This document shows positions 4,007 through 58,850 of a DNA stretch of 64,000 bases, piece by piece. Position numbers and translations under genes: made by a program. Numbering within the stretch: the stretch's first letter is position 1; the number at the start of each line of letters is the position of its first letter. The DNA is from Sphingosinicella sp. CPCC 101087 (GTDB taxonomy: Bacteria > Pseudomonadota > Alphaproteobacteria > Sphingomonadales > Sphingomonadaceae): the NCBI RefSeq assembly GCF_004151485.1, contig NZ_SBFF01000001.1, positions 372,001 to 436,000 of the forward strand, given 5' to 3'. The notes under the pieces are model-generated. The model saw only the letters and a list, made by a program, of their open reading frames with translations. It was not told where the DNA came from and searched no databases.

Positions 4007-4917
4007 GCCACCTTCGCCTTAAGCTCGGCAGGCGCGTAGCGCTCGATCATCCGAGCGCAGAAATCAGCGAACACCATCGGATCGCGCGGCGGGCTGGTAT
4101 GATGCGGCGCGATACCCTCGTGATCGGGGGTGAAGCAGAAGGTGACGGTCACGTCGAAATCGGCGAGCGCGTCCATCTGACGGTCGAACCAATCCTCCCA
4201 TCCCGGCCGGTAGCTGTCCCACCAGCTCAGGCCGGTGCGAAGCCGGGTGACACCGAGCCGTTTCATCCAGGCGACGGCGTCGTCCAGCCGGTGATCCTCG
4301 AAATGGAACCATTGCATGATGCCCATCTCGGGTGCGTAACGGGCGAAGCGCTCCAGCGCCGGCTTGGGCGTGCCGTCCTCGCGGATCAGGCCCATGTAGA
4401 AATGGCGATAATAGCTCGACCCTTCCGCTTCCTTGTGCCGGGTCGTGGCCTCCCATTCGCGGGGCAGGTCGAACAAGCTGTACCAGTAGACGCGGGGCAC
4501 GCGCCCCAGCAGCAGCTCGGCGGTTCGCTCGATACCAAAGAGCTGTACCTCCTCCGCGCCGAAGCTGCCGACCCCGACCTCGGTTGCCCAGATCTCGTGG
4601 TCAGGGGCGACCGCCTCGATCTCGGCGATACGGTCGGGCCACTCGTTGATCGGCCAGAGGTTCCAGTCGAGCGGAAAGCCGTGCACCGCGACGACATCGA
4701 CATGGTCGAGCGCCCCATAGTCGTCGAGCCGGCGGATGAAGTGCGGATCGATCGGGGAGATGCCGCCGAGCACGCGCTTGACCGAAGGATTGGCCGCGGC
4801 GATCGCCTTGCCCGCCTCGACGACGGTGCGGGCGTAGATCGACCAGTCCGGATCGAGCTCCGGGTCCCAATGCGACTTGTTGTTGGGCTCGTTCCAGATC
4901 ATCGCGGCTTCGATCAT
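4003..4917 (-). CDS. Glycoside-hydrolase-like protein with permuted TIM-barrel order
   Basis: A 304-residue protein resembling GH39/GH5-like (beta-xylosidase-type) barrels, but in the wrong order. Residues 5-11 give the IWNEP motif, with Glu10 in the usual acid/base place; residues 108-114 (EIWATEV) give a second Glu (113) in the usual nucleophile place, and YWYSLFD follows at 144-150: these are normally strands 4, 7 and 8. Residues 197-304 then hold what is normally the barrel start: GIMQWFHFED, GVTRLRTGLSWWD and VTVTFCFTP. ATG at 4917 overlaps the methyltransferase stop by four bases, so the short N terminus is real and not a missed start. It may cut, transfer or only bind a glycan; no signal peptide, so cytoplasmic. 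Confidence 0.75.
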   Translation of the reverse strand: MIEAAMIWNEPNNKSHWDPELDPDWSIYARTVVEAGKAIAAANPSVKRVLGGISPIDPHFIRRLDDYGALDHVDVVAVHGFPLDWNLWPINEWPDRIAEIEAVAPDHEIWATEVGVGSFGAEEVQLFGIERTAELLLGRVPRVYWYSLFDLPREWEATTRHKEAEGSSYYRHFYMGLIREDGTPKPALERFARYAPEMGIMQWFHFEDHRLDDAVAWMKRLGVTRLRTGLSWWDSYRPGWEDWFDRQMDALADFDVTVTFCFTPDHEGIAPHHTSPPRDPMVFADFCARMIERYAPAELKAKVA

Positions 4918-5735
4918 TCGGCCTCCCTCCGATGGCGTTCCGGATAGACTGCGCCGCTACCGGCACGGCCCTCGTAGGGCCGGTCGGCACGGCGGCAGAT
5001 ATAGACTTCGTCCTCGGCCCTCTTTTCGATCGAAAAGCCGGCAGCGCGCAGCATTGCCTCAGCGCAGGCGCGGTTCGGAACCCACCAGTTGGTCCAGTCG
5101 CCCGCATATTCGTGCTCTACGAAGTGGAGCTTCGGATAGCCGCTCTCGAAGAAGTGGTCGGTCTCGTTGAAGTCGTAATCCTCCGCCACGTCGAGGAGCT
5201 GCTTCGATCCTCGCTGCATGGATTGGAAGATCAGCATGTCGCCGGCGACATGCTCGCGGATGAGGTCGAGGGCGAGCAGCGGGTGGCGAAGATGGTAGAG
5301 GACGCCCATGAAGATGACGACGTCGAACTGCTCGCCGAGCGCCCCCACGTCATAGACGTCAAGCCTGCGAAACTCGATGCCGTCCTGGCCGAGCGTCTCG
5401 GCGGCGAAGCGGGCTTGGGCTAGGTATCGCTCGTCGGAATCGATCCCGAGTACGCGCGCGGCGCCGCGCCGCTTCATTTCCAGTGAATAGAAGCCGGCAT
5501 TGCAGCCGATGTCGAGCACCGTCCTCCCGGTCAGGTCGTCGGGCAGATGGTCGGCGAAGCGGCGAAACTTCTCGCCCGGATAGTCGCCGAGGAAATGGTT
5601 GGGCGCGGTCCAAACGCCGCCGATATTCAGGTTGTGGAACCAGGGTCCCAGACCGTCGATCCGCTGCCGAAGTGCCTCCACGTCGGCCGGAAGTTCGTCG
5701 CGGTCTCCATGCAAATGGGCCCGGGCCAGGTTCAT
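4914..5735 (-). CDS. SAM-dependent methyltransferase (TIGR04290-like)
   Basis: A 273-residue class I methyltransferase. The SAM-binding motif VLDIGCNAGFYSLE is at about residues 73-86, the acidic ribose-binding residue in GIDSDERY follows, and VIFMGVLYHLRHP is the motif IV/post-motif region. The N-terminal part with GPWFHNLNIGGVWTAP and DYPGEKF recalls CmoB-type enzymes and the family I remember as TIGR04290, which occurs in glycan-like clusters; I could not run the model. Start ATG 5735 overlaps the phosphatase stop by four bases. A sugar or glycan hydroxyl is the likely acceptor. Confidence 0.82.
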   Translation of the reverse strand: MNLARAHLHGDRDELPADVEALRQRIDGLGPWFHNLNIGGVWTAPNHFLGDYPGEKFRRFADHLPDDLTGRTVLDIGCNAGFYSLEMKRRGAARVLGIDSDERYLAQARFAAETLGQDGIEFRRLDVYDVGALGEQFDVVIFMGVLYHLRHPLLALDLIREHVAGDMLIFQSMQRGSKQLLDVAEDYDFNETDHFFESGYPKLHFVEHEYAGDWTNWWVPNRACAEAMLRAAGFSIEKRAEDEVYICRRADRPYEGRAGSGAVYPERHRREAE

Positions 5736-7086: not shown

Positions 7087-8811
7087 ATGCTCGTCTATGG
7101 CGACCGAAGCGAGCTGGCGGACCCCAGATCCTGCCTCGATCGGCTCGGCCGCGATCTCGCCGCTCTGTCGACGCAGCCGCCGGGGCTGAACCGCCATTCC
7201 GAACTCGTGTTCGCCCTGATCGAGGCGGGCCGTCTTCTCCAGGGCGTGGCGGATGCCGATTTCCGCCTGGTCGGCGCCGACCGCCGGACACCCGGCACGC
7301 GCGAGATAAGCGCTCTGCTCCAGGCCTTGGCGGCGGCCGTCTGCCGCTCCTGGGACAGCGAATTCGGCGGGCCGCTCATGCTTCCGGACGTCCCCTCCCC
7401 GCTCGGGCTACCGGAGACGGTCGAGCTGCGCACGCCGGAGGGCTTTGCTTATTACGGCCTCTATCCCGAGGCCTATATCGACGCGGCGCGGCGCCTGCGC
7501 CTCAGCGGACCACCGCGGGTGATCGGCATCAGGAGCATCGGGACCAGCCTCGGGGCGCTCGCCGCCGCCGCCCTCGGAGCACCGCCGCCGACGACCGTCC
7601 GCCCGATCGGCGATCCGGCAGACCGCCGGCTCGCGATTTCGGCCGATCTGGCCGCCGACCTGCTTTCCCCGCGCAACGCGCACTTCGTCATCGTCGACGA
7701 AGGCCCCGGCCGCTCCGGAAGCTCCTTCGCGTCGGTGGCCATCTGGCTGCGGGCGCGCCGCGTGCCGCTGGACCGTATCGCCTTCCTGCCGAGCCACGCC
7801 GGCGACCCGGGGCCCCAAGCCACGCCCCGGCACCGCCAGGTCTGGACTGGCGCGCAGCGCGTCGCTGCCGACCTCGGGCCTGCCCTGCCGCGGCTGCTCG
7901 CTGCATGGGCGGAGGATCGGATAGGTCCAATCGAAGGGCCGCTGATCGATATCTCGGCCGGCGCTTGGCGCAAGCGGGTCTATCCCGACGAATCGGCTTG
8001 GCCGGCGGTGATACCGGGGCAGGAGCGGCGCAAATTCCTCGCATCGGTCGGCGGCTCGACCTGGCTGCTCAAGTTCGCCGGCCTGGGCGTCGAAGGTCGC
8101 AGGCGGCTAGCCTGCGCGCGCACCCTCCACGCTGCCGGCCTGGTGCCTGAACCGCGGGACCTCATCCACGGTTTCCTCATCGAACGGTGGCAAAGCGACC
8201 GCAGCCCGCTCGCCGTCGGGGCGAAGCCGATGGCCGCGATCGCCCGCTATCTCGGCGTGCGGGCCCGTCTGCTGCCCGCCGCCGAAGGGAGCGGCGCCGA
8301 TCTCGCCCAGCTTTTCGCACTGGCCTCGCGCAATTGCCGCCTGGCGCTCGGTGCCGAAGCCGCCTCCGCGCTGGACCGGTGGAAGGCGCGCCTGAGTGCG
8401 CTGGAAGCTCGGGTGCGTCGGGTCGCCACCGACAATCGTCTCGATCGGCACGAATGGCTCGATCTCCCCGGCAAGCCCTTGCTCAAGGCGGACGCCGTCG
8501 ACCACCATGCGGGGCACGATCTGATCGGTTGCCAGGATATAGCCTGGGACGTGGCCGGCGCCGCGGTCGAGTTCGACCTCGACCCGCCCGCCGCCGCCCG
8601 CCTCGCCGCCGCAGTCGGCCGCGCCGCCGGCCGGAAAGTCGATCCGGAGCTGTGCGAATTCCTTACCTTGGCCTATCTCGCCTTCCGCATGGGCCAAGTG
8701 AAGCTCGCGGCGGAATCCGCCGGAGCGTGGCCGGGGGAAATGGTCCGGCTCGACGCCCGCGCTGCCGGCTATGCGCATCGACTTGAGCGCCGGCTCGCCC
8801 GGGCCGCCTGA
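7087..8811 (+). CDS. Unrecognised PRTase-like plus kinase-like two-domain protein
   Basis: About 574 residues, no family name recognised. The first half looks like a phosphoribosyltransferase: VIGIRSIGTSLGA resembles the pyrophosphate loop and VIVDEGPGRSGSS (about residues 201-213) the PRPP-binding motif. The last third (about residues 345-570) has traits of an aminoglycoside-phosphotransferase-like kinase: a Lys in WLLKF after a glycine turn, then HAGHDLIGCQDIAWDVAG near 470-490, comparable to the APH metal-binding DxxWDxA segment. ATG 7087 is used; a longer frame from 6976 lies inside the phosphatase gene. Together with the neighbouring phosphatase this suggests chemistry on a phosphoribosyl or phospho-sugar, but no reaction can be claimed. 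Confidence 0.72.
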   Translation: MLVYGDRSELADPRSCLDRLGRDLAALSTQPPGLNRHSELVFALIEAGRLLQGVADADFRLVGADRRTPGTREISALLQALAAAVCRSWDSEFGGPLMLPDVPSPLGLPETVELRTPEGFAYYGLYPEAYIDAARRLRLSGPPRVIGIRSIGTSLGALAAAALGAPPPTTVRPIGDPADRRLAISADLAADLLSPRNAHFVIVDEGPGRSGSSFASVAIWLRARRVPLDRIAFLPSHAGDPGPQATPRHRQVWTGAQRVAADLGPALPRLLAAWAEDRIGPIEGPLIDISAGAWRKRVYPDESAWPAVIPGQERRKFLASVGGSTWLLKFAGLGVEGRRRLACARTLHAAGLVPEPRDLIHGFLIERWQSDRSPLAVGAKPMAAIARYLGVRARLLPAAEGSGADLAQLFALASRNCRLALGAEAASALDRWKARLSALEARVRRVATDNRLDRHEWLDLPGKPLLKADAVDHHAGHDLIGCQDIAWDVAGAAVEFDLDPPAAARLAAAVGRAAGRKVDPELCEFLTLAYLAFRMGQVKLAAESAGAWPGEMVRLDARAAGYAHRLERRLARAA

Positions 8812-54709: not shown

Positions 54710-54923
54710 CCCGGCTACTCCGTTCGGGCAATGGCTTGCCACGTCTCGACCGGCTCTAGCCGAGCCTTTCCCGGACATCCTGAGCGACCGCTGAAAGCTC
54801 GCGATTCAGAATCTTTTCAGAATCGGGCACGGAAATCCGCGAAAAGTGCGGGAAAGGTTCGAAAGGCGTGGCGCGCTGTGCTAGATTGTGCGTCAGATCC
54901 CGGCGACGAAAGTCCGCGAAAAC

Positions 54924-56561
54924 ATGGCGAAGGGTGCGCGTCTCGACTTTGTGGCCTTCGATCGCTTCGTCGTCGACCGCGGCGACGAGCGCGTGATCGG
55001 CCCTGACGGGCCGGTCAAGCTGGGCAACAAGGCCTACCGCCTGCTGATGGCGCTGATCGACAATGACGGGCGGCTCCTCACCAAGGACGAGCTGCTCTCC
55101 TCGGTCTGGGACGGCACGATCGTCACCGAGGCGTCGCTCACCTCGGCGATCCGCGAGCTGCGCCGCGCGCTCGGCGACGAATCGCGCCAGCCGCGGCTGA
55201 TCGAGAGCGTCTATGGCCGTGGCTATCGCTTCATTGCGCCGCTCGGGCCTGCCGCGCCCCCGCCTCCGGCCGCGCCGACAGCGGGAGCGTCGCGGCTGCC
55301 GCAGCAGCCGGCCCCGGAGGGGCGACCGCCGCTCATTCTCGTCTCGGCCTTTCGGGACGATGCGGTGCGAGCCCTCCATCCCTTTCTCGCCTCCGAGCTT
55401 CGCGAGGAGGTGCTGTCCGGGCTGTCGCGATTCCGCGAGATCCGGCTGATCGCCGACAACCGCCCCGAGGAAGAAGCGGCACAGGCGCACCGGACGGACC
55501 GCGGCTACCAGCTTACCGCGACCCTCCTGCCGGAGGGGGACGGGATCAAGGTGATCGCCCGCGCCCGCCGCCTCGACGACGGCCGCGTGCTGTGGGCGGA
55601 GACGATGTCACTCGCGGATACCGGCACCGCCAGCGGGGTCGGCAAGATCGTGCGGCGCATTGCCGGTGCGGCCATCCCGGCGGTCGACGAGGACCTCTAT
55701 CTCGATCTGCCGCGCGAGAGCGACGATCTCTACAACCGCTACCTCGTCGCCAAGCGGCGCTCCTTCACCGCGCAGACGTTCGTCGAGGCGAAAGCGGCGG
55801 CCGAGGCGCTCGAAGCGATCGTCGCCGAGCGGCCGGGCTTCGCCCTTGCATACCCACCGCTCGCCCGCCTCTACAATACCGACTTCGGCTATACCGCGCT
55901 CGGCTCGAGCGGGTCGGCGGAACGGGCCCGCGCACTCCAGCTCGCCAAGGACGGCCTCGCCGCCGACCGCGGCAACGTCCACGCCTACACCGTGCTGGGC
56001 TTCTGCCATTTGAGGCATGAGCAGCGCGATCTCGCTCGCGAATGCTTCGAAACGGCGCTCATCCTGAACCCGTACAATCCCGGCCGGCTCAACGAGGTGG
56101 CCACCGGTTTGATGTGGCTCGGCGAATTCGAGCGGACGCGCAGCCTCTACGAGTTCAGCCAGTCGCTCCATCCGTTCATCGACGACCTGCTTCTGGAGGA
56201 TCTGGCGCAGCTGGCGCTGTTCGAAGGCCGGCCCGAGGAGACGCTGGGCCATGTCCGCAAGATGAGTGCGCAGCGGCTTTGGGCCAGTCTGTACGAGGCA
56301 GTCGCGGAGCATATGGTCGGAGTCCCGGCCTCCCGCTCCAGGCTGCCCGCCTGGCGCGACTGGGTGGGGAGCCGCTGGCACGACGGCAGCCCGCCAGGCC
56401 AGCAGGCGCTCGAGGAATGGATCGCGCTCCACCACCCGCTCGCCTCCGAGCCGAAGGCGGAATTTGTCGGACTCGTGCAGTCCACCTTTGCCTTGGTCGA
56501 CCGGATGGACCGGCACGACACCCGTCCGGAGCCGGCCACCGGGGTTCCCCACCGCTTCTGA
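54924..56561 (+). CDS. Winged-helix (OmpR-type) regulator with TPR-like C-terminal part
   Basis: About 545 residues. Residues 5-105 are an OmpR/PhoB-type DNA-binding domain (VKLGNKAYRLLMALIDNDGR, TEASLTSAIRELRRALGD, IESVYGRGYRFIAPL). A Pro/Ala-rich linker follows, then a domain with LILVSAFRDDAVRALHPFLA and a helical, TPR-like half containing HAYTVLGFCHLRHEQRDLARECFETALILNPYNPG. This is a CadC-like layout but without a membrane helix, so it is soluble. ATG 54924 is chosen over GTG 54888 without strong evidence. It converges on the tfuA-ycaO operon; a regulatory link is possible only by position. Confidence 0.8.
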   Translation: MAKGARLDFVAFDRFVVDRGDERVIGPDGPVKLGNKAYRLLMALIDNDGRLLTKDELLSSVWDGTIVTEASLTSAIRELRRALGDESRQPRLIESVYGRGYRFIAPLGPAAPPPPAAPTAGASRLPQQPAPEGRPPLILVSAFRDDAVRALHPFLASELREEVLSGLSRFREIRLIADNRPEEEAAQAHRTDRGYQLTATLLPEGDGIKVIARARRLDDGRVLWAETMSLADTGTASGVGKIVRRIAGAAIPAVDEDLYLDLPRESDDLYNRYLVAKRRSFTAQTFVEAKAAAEALEAIVAERPGFALAYPPLARLYNTDFGYTALGSSGSAERARALQLAKDGLAADRGNVHAYTVLGFCHLRHEQRDLARECFETALILNPYNPGRLNEVATGLMWLGEFERTRSLYEFSQSLHPFIDDLLLEDLAQLALFEGRPEETLGHVRKMSAQRLWASLYEAVAEHMVGVPASRSRLPAWRDWVGSRWHDGSPPGQQALEEWIALHHPLASEPKAEFVGLVQSTFALVDRMDRHDTRPEPATGVPHRF

Positions 56562-56597: not shown

Positions 56598-57371
56598 TCA
56601 GGCGCCGGATGCAGCCTCCGCCGCCGTCGGCGAGCCCCCCCGACGCGGTGCCGACACACCGCAATCGGCCGCGAGCCTTTCGATGAAGCAGGTCCGCGGG
56701 ACATGAAGCGGCCGCAGCCGGACGGGCGATCCGAGCGCCGCCGCGGCGGCGGCCAGGCAGCGGAGGGCATCGCGCTCCTTCAGGCGGACCTTGCCGCACG
56801 GGAGCCACTCGGCGAAAGCCTGCCGCTCCGGCAAGGGACGGCATGACAGGATGGCGGCCCAGCTGCGCTCGCCATAGTGCAAGGACGATGCATCGGCCAA
56901 CAGCGCGCCAGCGCCGGCGCGGGAAAGCGCTCCCTGCCTGATGGCCGCAGAGAGCGTCGCACGAACGTCCACCAGGGGTTCGCTCAACGGCCTCCAGTCC
57001 AACTCCTCCGGGGCATGGACCAGCGCGACCTCGTCGTCGCCCTCGATCCTTCCGGAGCGATAGAGCCGATAGATCGCGCCGATGCCGATCATCCCGAACC
57101 GGTCGAGCTCGGCGGCGCGAAGCGCGCCCATGCTGGCGCCGCCGAAGACGGCGACTCCGGCTTCCATGAGCAGCAATATCTCCTTGTGCCAGACGGACGG
57201 CGTCGAATCGAAATAGCCGTCGATCAGGCAGACGGCGTGCGGAGGATCTTCGACCAGGCGGATCAGGTCTCCCGAACTGGCCGGAGGGCGCCAGCCGAAC
57301 CGCGGCTCGGCCGGGCGCCGCGCCGTCGGAAGCGAGGGTCCGGCGAATATCAGGAGGGAAAGCCGGCTCAT
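56598..57371 (-). CDS. TfuA-like protein
   Basis: A 257-residue TfuA-domain protein. LSLLIFAGPSLP is the typical start, AVCLIDGYFDSTPSVWHKEILLLMEAGVAVFGGASMGALRAAEL the core with the GxSMGALRAAEL signature (kept here in pieces), followed by GIGAIYRLYRSGRIEGDDEVALVH. TfuA proteins work with YcaO enzymes, where they help form backbone thioamides, probably by delivering sulfur. ATG 57371 overlaps the YcaO stop by four bases, the strongest possible functional hint. Last gene of the candidate RiPP operon. Confidence 0.88.
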   Translation of the reverse strand: MSRLSLLIFAGPSLPTARRPAEPRFGWRPPASSGDLIRLVEDPPHAVCLIDGYFDSTPSVWHKEILLLMEAGVAVFGGASMGALRAAELDRFGMIGIGAIYRLYRSGRIEGDDEVALVHAPEELDWRPLSEPLVDVRATLSAAIRQGALSRAGAGALLADASSLHYGERSWAAILSCRPLPERQAFAEWLPCGKVRLKERDALRCLAAAAAALGSPVRLRPLHVPRTCFIERLAADCGVSAPRRGGSPTAAEAASGA

Positions 57372-58513
57372 TGCACGGGGTCGCGGCGGCGGCGGGCGCC
57401 GGAGCCGAGGCCGCACACCCACACTTTGACCAAATGGAAACCCTCGACGGTTCCCAGCTCATGGACCGCAACCTGCGGGTAGCCGGCCAAGGCGAGCGCG
57501 GTCACGAGGCCCTCGACATCCGCCGGACCGGGCTCGATCTCCTCCCATTGCCGACCCGGCCAGCCGGCGGGCAGAGGCAGGCCGAACGCGACCGTCGCGC
57601 CGGGCGCTGCGGCGGCATATTGGGAACCGAGCCGGTCCTCGCGTGCCCCCGCTATCCAGGTCGACCGCGACTGAATGGCTTCGGCCATCGCCCTGAACAA
57701 GGCGATTCCGGGGATCGAATGGGTTCCGCTGCCATGGGTGGCCCGATACGGCGCCCGGTCTTTGCGGGAATCGTTCAGCTCGCACACGAAGGTCGGACTG
57801 CGAGTGACCGAAGGCACATGATAGGCTCGAAGGCCGATGCCGGCACCTGCCAGCCGCCCGCGCCACGCCTGAAACCAGTCGAACGGCACCGTCGCGAGGT
57901 CCAGCCCGTCGGCGGTGCAGGAGATCAGCCCCCTCGCGCTCCACTCGGTGACCGCGTCGCGTTCGATCGCCTCGTGCAATGCGACCACGATGGCCTCGTC
58001 GCGCGATGCCCCGGCCGCCAGGCCGTTGCTGGAGCGCTCGAAGAAACTGGGCAGGCCTCGCGTGAAATCGAGCGAAACGAGGTGGAAGGGCAGATGGAGT
58101 CGACCGCCGCCGACTAGGTCGAACGCCTCGAGCCATTCATGGGTCTCGTCGGCGGGTGGCGGGGCGCCGCGACGGCGCGCGAAGTCCGAAAGGCACATGG
58201 CGCGTTCGGTGGACGGCAGGTCGGCAAAGCGGCAGATGGGACCCGTCGGAACCACTGACTCCGCCCGATGGCTTTCGACCGCCTCGAGCAACGCGCCGAC
58301 CTTGGCATCGCTCGGAGTCGCGCCCTTGCCCTGATGGACGCTGAGCGCCCGCCCCATCGGCCGCACCGCCTGCCAGACGGGCAGCCCGATCCGGTCGAGC
58401 CGCGTCAGATCGGCGAGACGGGTGACGCCGCAAGCCTCGGCGGCGCGTCGCGCGCGGTCCAGAACCGTCTCGGCGCCTGCCTGGCGACTCGGGTCGGCAG
58501 GACCGAGCGACAT
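57368..58513 (-). CDS. YcaO-family cyclodehydratase/thioamide synthase
   Basis: A 381-residue YcaO protein that uses ATP to activate a peptide backbone amide. The family's ATP/Mg-binding parts are visible: SVHQGKGATPSDAKVGALLE, with EAVESHRAE after it, ALHEAIERDAVTEW, and THGSGTHSIPGIALFRAMAE followed by AIQSR. ATG 58513 overlaps the stop of the small upstream ORF by one base (TGATG); a start at 58552 would overlap it more and is less likely. Paired with TfuA it is more likely a thioamide-forming than an azoline-forming enzyme. No E1-like/ocin-ThiF partner is seen nearby. Confidence 0.9.
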   Translation of the reverse strand: MSLGPADPSRQAGAETVLDRARRAAEACGVTRLADLTRLDRIGLPVWQAVRPMGRALSVHQGKGATPSDAKVGALLEAVESHRAESVVPTGPICRFADLPSTERAMCLSDFARRRGAPPPADETHEWLEAFDLVGGGRLHLPFHLVSLDFTRGLPSFFERSSNGLAAGASRDEAIVVALHEAIERDAVTEWSARGLISCTADGLDLATVPFDWFQAWRGRLAGAGIGLRAYHVPSVTRSPTFVCELNDSRKDRAPYRATHGSGTHSIPGIALFRAMAEAIQSRSTWIAGAREDRLGSQYAAAAPGATVAFGLPLPAGWPGRQWEEIEPGPADVEGLVTALALAGYPQVAVHELGTVEGFHLVKVWVCGLGSGARRRRDPVQ

Positions 58514-58788
58514 CACGGGGGCGGTGGCGGGCCCGTGCTCTGTCCGGCCCATTCCATATCCGAATGGAGCGGAACGGCTTTGACGGCCGAGGCCTGGCCA
58601 GCTTCGAACATCTCGCGGATCTGGCGGGCGGCAATCTTCTGATCTTCGGTGAGCCCCGCTGCCGCCTCGTCATATTCGATGACGGCAACCGTCACGTAGA
58701 AGCGGCCCTGATATTCGACGATGAAGCTCGGCTCGGACTGCCCACCCTTGCGCGGGTCGCCGGCCACGGATCCCGATCTCGATGCCAT
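58513..58788 (-). CDS. Candidate RiPP precursor or YcaO/TfuA substrate protein
   Basis: A 91-residue protein encoded directly before YcaO and coupled to it through TGATG. It starts MASRSGSVAGDPRKGG, has a strand-rich middle (SFIVEYQGRFYVTVAVIEYD), a helix (TEDQKIAARQIREMFEAG) and a short tail with SDMEWAGQSTG and five prolines. No Cys, so thiazoles are excluded; a backbone thioamide in the tail or middle is possible. AGGGGGG at good spacing precedes ATG 58788, and TATTAT lies before that. It could instead be a peptide-binding partner; no family recognised. Confidence 0.6.
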   Translation of the reverse strand: MASRSGSVAGDPRKGGQSEPSFIVEYQGRFYVTVAVIEYDEAAAGLTEDQKIAARQIREMFEAGQASAVKAVPLHSDMEWAGQSTGPPPPP

Positions 58789-58812: not shown

Positions 58813-58850
58813 ATAATAGTCCAATAAGCGCCCGGGCGCTACCGGGCGCT
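58813..58850 (-). promoter_or_regulatory. Promoter and palindrome of the candidate RiPP operon
   Basis: On the minus strand TATTAT (58818-58813) is a strong -10 some 25 bases before the precursor start. Directly upstream lie AGCGCCCGGGCGCT (58827-58840, a perfect 14-base palindrome) and a further CCGGGCGCT (58842-58850), covering the -35 region. This arrangement suggests a repressor or activator site. Confidence 0.5.

Follow-up and report, generated by a model that had tools for sequence, protein, structure and literature searches.

Among the described systems with which a small YcaO-TfuA operon can be compared is the thiovarsolin cluster of Streptomyces varsoviensis (varA, varY, varT and varO), in which varA, varY and varT alone suffice to make thiovarsolin B and for which the available text records no specific protease (PMC6511847). 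TfuA is described, in the accessible portion of PMC13063428, as a hydrolase whose substrate is a thiocarboxylated carrier, and the same source portrays YcaO enzymes that act on whole proteins, including acidic uL16-type enzymes encoded away from tfuA. The survey of Malit et al. (2021), as far as its accessible text goes, predicted 797 precursor families and noted both fused tfuA-ycaO genes and regulators, the TfuA-YcaO products known by then being all actinobacterial (PMC8120280); the stem 'sphingo' is absent from its main text in the form available, and its supplements may list the sphingomonad precursor family discussed below. A literature search pairing TfuA with Sphingomonas matched only work on pitcher plants. 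Two further systems bear on the comparison: NHLP precursors, for which part of PMC12455567 describes a folded leader docking on YcaO in an azoline-forming case with a recognition-element domain, and the RRNPP systems, whose signature, in the available part of PMC10075063, includes a receptor of 250-500 aa with TPRs.

The locus compared with these systems lies in the window, by which is meant the whole 64,000-nucleotide stretch of Sphingosinicella sp. CPCC 101087 DNA that was analysed. Three genes on its minus strand, encoding a 91-residue small protein, a YcaO enzyme and a TfuA-like protein in that order, overlap end to start; a sequence-only reading of this DNA had described them in this way, and the ORF calls, the TGATG and ATGA junctions and the Pfam matches to YcaO and TfuA agree with it (Table 1). 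The YcaO start is most likely 58513, at the TGATG that joins the stop codon of the small ORF to the YcaO ATG, and tfuA starts inside an ATGA overlap with the end of ycaO (57371 versus 57368). What that reading had left out of the gene set is a convergent regulator gene, the most constant neighbour of the module. The upstream region of one related locus, L059, carries a direct repeat similar to that listed upstream of the small ORF (TCTGGCGC, 11 bp period).

Table 1. Features of the operon and its convergent regulator, in window positions.
Feature	Position	Strand	Basis
Small ORF, putative precursor/substrate (P0001)	58513..58788	-	ORF and translation; same-place homologues in relatives; dN/dS
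Folded leader-like domain (predicted), residues 18-75	58564..58737	-	AF2 from 25 sequences; conserved residues
Variable C-terminal tail, residues 76-91 (SDMEWAGQSTGPPPPP), putative core	58516..58563	-	25-sequence alignment; motif counts; repeated cores
YcaO enzyme (P0002)	57368..58513	-	Pfam YcaO 3e-45; nearest solved structure MJ1094, 6pe3, 3.6e-17
TfuA-like protein (P0003)	56598..57371	-	Pfam TfuA 8.4e-46; TfuA structure 6xp8, 5e-33
Direct repeat AGCGCCCGG, 10 bp period	58832..58850	-	Upstream of small ORF; candidate operator, weak
Winged-helix/TPR regulator, 557 aa, convergent with tfuA	54888..56561	+	Pfam Trans_reg_C 8.8e-18, TPR_2 1.1e-4
OmpR/ToxR-type winged-helix DNA-binding domain, residues ~21-121	54948..55250	+	
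Regulator C-terminal alpha/beta + TPR part, residues 148-543	55329..56516	+	HMM ranges; AF2; Foldseek TPR, CadC
RLYNTD motif in TPR part, residues 327-332	55866..55883	+	Asn kept in linked regulators

The operon's YcaO is the single YcaO match in its genome, which also holds three ThiS-family genes. The best NCBIfam relatives of both enzymes are the pair that thioamidates a glycine of McrA (YcaO 2.8e-39, TfuA 3.3e-54), although the scores fall below the curated cut-offs of these equivalogs (135.2 versus 365 for YcaO, 183.5 versus 235.2 for TfuA). Thioamide formation is the chemistry that this homology would suggest for the window's pair.

That the small ORF is a genuine gene is borne out by dN/dS values of 0.08-0.32 in 15 pairwise comparisons among six relatives of one genus. 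To place it among its relatives, 397 genomes of the family were searched for TfuA, of which 34 were positive; with four weak matches (E 3.9e-5 to 7.9e-4) left out, the surroundings of 29 TfuA-positive genomes, four loci picked by a small-ORF match and the window made up 34 stretches, 31 of them with YcaO. One of the TfuA loci (G085) is cut by a contig end. With an iterated profile of the small ORF, 20 of these 31 YcaO loci gave a homologue at E<1e-3; the unbiased count is 18 of 29, because two loci (L080 and L081) had been picked by the small-ORF match itself. The small ORF persists beside the enzyme pair in relatives, so that the earlier proposal of a TfuA-YcaO RiPP-type operon with a new kind of precursor is well supported and survives the refuting condition set for it, absence of the ORF beside the same pair. 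At some loci the ORF is missing or not recognised: at L077, among the ORFs listed, neither a small ORF of that kind nor a linked regulator accompanies YcaO-TfuA, and L052 has only a leaderless 47-aa ORF positioned after tfuA. The other nine of the 11 remaining TfuA-chosen loci comprise a borderline match (L075, 0.005) and eight with a similarly placed small ORF (L069-L074, L076 and L078), picked by eye among the ORFs listed and of unproven homology. A single precursor family for all loci is at most possible, a profile comparison (hhalign) of the main group with these divergent eight giving a probability of 2.7% and an E of 0.017, in register; the eight were included in alignment A1, which was used for the AF2 model and the order-level search. 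Some variant loci deserve mention in their own right. YcaO and TfuA are fused in one frame of ~650 aa at L069, L071, L073, L074 and L076, with the small ORF still upstream; at L077 (G038:C1:354500-368500) the genes before YcaO-TfuA appear by eye to be of JAMM type and ThiS/MoaD-MoeB-rhodanese type, a sulfur-carrier variant; and L079 (G030) seems to be either a broken locus or one with sequencing errors, since its YcaO match is split over two frames and its TfuA match is weak; a leader-like small ORF is present there too.

Beyond the family, the small ORF was not recovered. The order-level search found it in 10 of 296 genomes, every one in the same family, including one (G380) with a weak match in which neither YcaO nor TfuA was found. 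Among other alphaproteobacteria, TfuA occurs in 19 of 366 genomes besides the window's, and the precursor family is local, since none of 23 non-sphingomonad TfuA loci holds a homologue of the small ORF. Different small ORFs accompany such loci, several of them with internal repeats; those upstream of YcaO at L120 (oriented 7891-8395), L131/L133 and L124/L127 contain many VSGAR units, GGKQRFA-like units and SADLY units. YcaO relatives of less than 60% identity also occur in 13 plasmid records from Azospirillum, Paracoccus, Sinorhizobium and Shinella.

The translation bears out the earlier description of a 91-residue protein lacking Cys and ending in a tail with five prolines; the tail reads HSDMEWAGQSTGPPPPP, and the five prolines fall within the last ten residues. 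It matches no Pfam or NCBIfam family, NHLP/Nif11 included (the best chance hit, DUF6087 at 0.047, is below the cut-off), has no fold match in a PDB structure search and has no hydrophobic N-terminal stretch (maximum hydropathy 0.66), a point that bears on the secretion tag carried by RRNPP propeptides. The structured middle that had been proposed is moderately supported: the AF2 model has a block of residues 21-80 with pLDDT 72-90, predicted to contain strands at 22-26, 29-32 and 70-73 and a helix at 48-63, and the model as a whole has a mean pLDDT of 70.9 and a pTM of 0.49. F22, Y31, T33 and Y39 are conserved in this body. The tail has no predicted structure, and in an alignment of 25 sequences it varies around a short motif, roughly F-A-N/Q-T-D/E/G-P. 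Of 29 tails, 22 have the pair [QN][TS] and seven lack it, where shuffled tails have it in 12.3 on average; of seven tails found later, six have it against 1.8 (the exception being L183). Tail boundaries were set by eye, the motif was picked after the tails had been viewed, and the later seven come from genera already sampled. The window's own tail, a single unit with no tandem repeat, fits the motif loosely, having QSTG instead of QTG or NTG.

The tail is best supported as a core by relatives that share the window's genus, where the sequence of one locus, L054, suggests a precursor with multiple cores. An 84-aa ORF just before ycaO contains six FANTE(P/S)P units, and the same operon holds a leader-bearing ORF ending LQFAQTDPPPNTL. 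Codon differences among the six units, taken over 15 non-independent pairs, number 76 silent and 10 replacing; they are thus mostly silent, as in multi-core RiPP precursors. A second leader-type ORF in L054 (oriented 4749-5121) loses similarity after an EYDP stretch, is without the core motif and looks degenerate. Shorter repeats occur elsewhere: three ANI[GE]D units at L081 and two ANI[RD]P units at L052, each in an ORF between tfuA and the regulator, and two A-Q-T-x-P units each at L051 and L053. These repeated units in relatives lead us to lean towards release of a peptide.

The regulator, whose stop codon is 36 bp from that of tfuA in the window, was recognised by neighbour clustering at 28 of the 31 YcaO loci, 26 of them among the 29 TfuA-chosen ones. 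It converges on tfuA, at distances of -188 to +488 bp, everywhere but at L055, whose copy lies upstream and is read in the same direction, and it is absent from the stretches of L077, L078 and L079, the genome of L078 having a copy ~15 kb off. With the window copy as query, matches at E<=1e-30 were found in 23 of 34 TfuA-positive and 4 of 363 TfuA-negative genomes (Fisher p 3.7e-25, ignoring relatedness). In all eight genomes compared, the linked copy is the top match of the regulator profile (1.9e-139 to 8e-264, the best other being 8.6e-44); this profile, A3, held the linked copies of six of the eight, and in the remaining two (G077 and G229) the linked copy still came first. The distance matrices of YcaO, TfuA and regulator correlate across 28 loci (r 0.65-0.77, 0 of 2000 permutations, with shared ancestry not controlled), which shows that the three are co-inherited. 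Linked regulators are ~530-700 aa long, and in them a DNA-binding domain at the N terminus precedes a TPR part at the C terminus. The DNA-binding part swaps between a short OmpR-type and a longer form judged SARP-like by eye, and the last 400 residues are kept. The AF2 model of the window copy (mean pLDDT 87.5, pTM 0.72) comprises a winged helix, an alpha/beta domain and a TPR solenoid, with ToxR, CadC and TPR proteins among its structure matches; no RRNPP relatives were among the structure matches listed, which excludes nothing. Of 32 cluster-linked regulators, 30 retain the Asn of a LYNTD-like motif that lies in the TPR part, and the motif was found by pattern in none of 14 unlinked matches, some of which stop short of that region. 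TPR regulators near TfuA are not unique to sphingomonads, only the linked subfamily is: 8 of the 23 non-sphingomonad TfuA loci have a regulator-profile match (E 2.8e-87 to 4e-7) at 1-4.5 kb, and the motif is absent in the six of these that were aligned.

Seven nearby window proteins were assigned as acetyltransferases, DUF188, anthrone-oxygenase-like, MreB, GlmS-type and GlmU-type proteins, and L052, L053, L055 and L066 have only the module genes in common with the window. Among the 40 top neighbour clusters listed, no exporter or protease occupies a fixed place near the module, so that the lack of a coupled exporter or protease, noted from the window itself, holds for the conserved module; the remaining clusters consist of antisense frames or of families at scattered positions, one of which, ABC ATPase-like, occurs in five loci. 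A distant or general exporter or protease may exist. It had also been suggested, from this lack, that the product may stay in the cell or the small protein may be a lasting modified protein. As thiovarsolin B needs only varA, varY and varT, in a cluster that likewise has no specific protease (PMC6511847, in its available text), the absence alone is no argument for such a protein. Within the family the module was present in six of six genomes of one genus, in three of six and two of seven of two others, and, leaving aside a weak YcaO match that would make ten, in nine of 71 genomes of a fourth.

The best explanation, to which we assign a probability of roughly 0.68, is that sphingomonads have a family of operons for thioamidated RiPPs, to which these loci belong and which is served by a dedicated regulator. 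The loci have what TfuA-YcaO RiPP clusters have: adjacent ycaO and tfuA, a conserved small ORF, and a conserved leader followed by a variable or repeated core. Judged from these sequences, the tail of the small protein is probably marked with sulfur by the two neighbouring enzymes. The folded N-terminal part would act as a leader that docks on YcaO, which with ATP would activate a backbone amide in the flexible tail; TfuA would free sulfide from a thiocarboxylated ThiS-type carrier, and one amide near the F-A-N/Q-T-D/E/G-P motif (QSTGP in the window) would become a thioamide. Host proteases would then probably release a short tail peptide, and the convergent winged-helix/TPR protein would control the operon and perhaps other genes. 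That protein may do no more than switch the operon, as regulators commonly do; sensing of the product, the modified peptide, is possible and would be a novelty.

As the module is nearly always beside one regulator, the tail may become either a peptide product or an internal signal, and the leading alternative is that the small protein, or just its tail, remains intracellular once thioamidated and binds to the regulator through the TPR part of the latter, an RRNPP-like logic with a thioamide step added. We consider this unlikely on our analysis. In its favour are the linkage of the regulator and the first rank of the linked copy in every genome compared, the retention of the C-terminal part while the DNA-binding part swaps, the conserved Asn, the constant presence of the module in one genus, the lack of a fixed exporter or protease and a window regulator in which no membrane span is suggested (maximum 19-residue hydropathy 0.98). 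A value of 1.6 is customary as the cut-off for a membrane span, however, and two of five regulator relatives tested reach 1.71 on the same scale; regulators, SARPs included, commonly sit in biosynthetic clusters; the LYNTD-like motif could be structural; and the repeated cores suggest a released product. The broader proposition of thioamide-based intracellular signalling in Gram-negatives, in which the tail of a never-exported small protein is marked and a cytosolic TPR factor reads the mark through its LYNTD region, must be put a little lower still, as a speculative extension. The RiPP and signalling interpretations overlap, because a thioamidated peptide could be both product and signal.

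Two further alternatives retain the genes and change their roles. The small protein might be an adaptor while YcaO-TfuA acts on another protein, as E. coli YcaO does on uL16 and the archaeal pair on McrA. The small protein is indeed small, partly folded and conserved, no separate recognition-element protein is found among the Pfam hits of the module, and YcaO enzymes acting on whole proteins have precedent in the accessible part of PMC13063428. Against this, a variable tail with a recurring motif, repeated cores and a leaderless multi-core ORF resemble a substrate, and uL16-type YcaO enzymes, acidic and not beside tfuA in that same partial source, differ from the window enzyme, which has a pI of 6.6, scores 12.9 against a cut-off of 700 bits with the uL16/S12-type model NF040716 and is adjoined by tfuA and the small ORF; we regard the adaptor role as very improbable. 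Least probable of all is that YcaO forms an azoline, an amidine or something else on Thr, Ser, Asn or Gln of the tail in place of a thioamide. The tails are rich in these residues and YcaO enzymes give several products. Against this, each locus has a TfuA partner (a consequence of the selection), neither a dehydrogenase nor a recognition-element partner was seen, and the NCBIfam SagD cyclodehydratase model scores 56 against a cut-off of 219.

Proteobacterial TfuA-YcaO clusters are numerous on paper, while the known products were actinobacterial as of the available text of PMC8120280. The sphingomonad module is a compact test case: its three genes overlap, repeated cores back its tail motif, and its linked regulator makes the purpose of the product directly testable by expression profiling and binding studies. 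If the regulator does read the tail in its modified form, this would establish backbone thioamides as an internal signal.

Set against known systems, the thioamidated-RiPP reading draws on several partial likenesses. The archaeal McrA-glycine pair comprises the closest NCBIfam relatives, but the window enzymes fall below its cut-offs and have a small ORF attached. NHLP structured leaders share the idea of a folded leader with the small ORF, which has no family match to them or to any other Pfam or NCBIfam model. CadC/ToxR-like and SARP-TPR regulators share the layout of winged helix, alpha/beta domain and TPR-like part with the regulator, which differs from them in having no suggested transmembrane span in the window copy and belongs to a distinct linked subfamily. 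RRNPP pairs likewise place a TPR receptor with a DNA-binding domain near a small-protein gene; the regulator, however, with 557 aa in the window and up to ~695 in relatives, is longer than the receptors of that signature as given in the accessible text, and ycaO and tfuA lie between the two genes, direct adjacency being seen only in L052 and L081. The proteobacterial clusters of Malit et al. (2021) similarly combine a TfuA-YcaO pair with predicted precursors, in the portion of PMC8120280 available. Thiovarsolins offer a known parallel: judged from the available text of PMC6511847, the minimal set there is also precursor, YcaO and TfuA, and cores are also repeated in some relatives and single in others, whereas precursor sequence and core differ (APR there), and the sphingomonad module has a linked TPR regulator and no constant heme-oxygenase-like or transporter gene. 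It is because a precursor, YcaO and TfuA suffice for thiovarsolins, and because repeated cores are common to both, that a thioamidated RiPP is the best reading of this operon.
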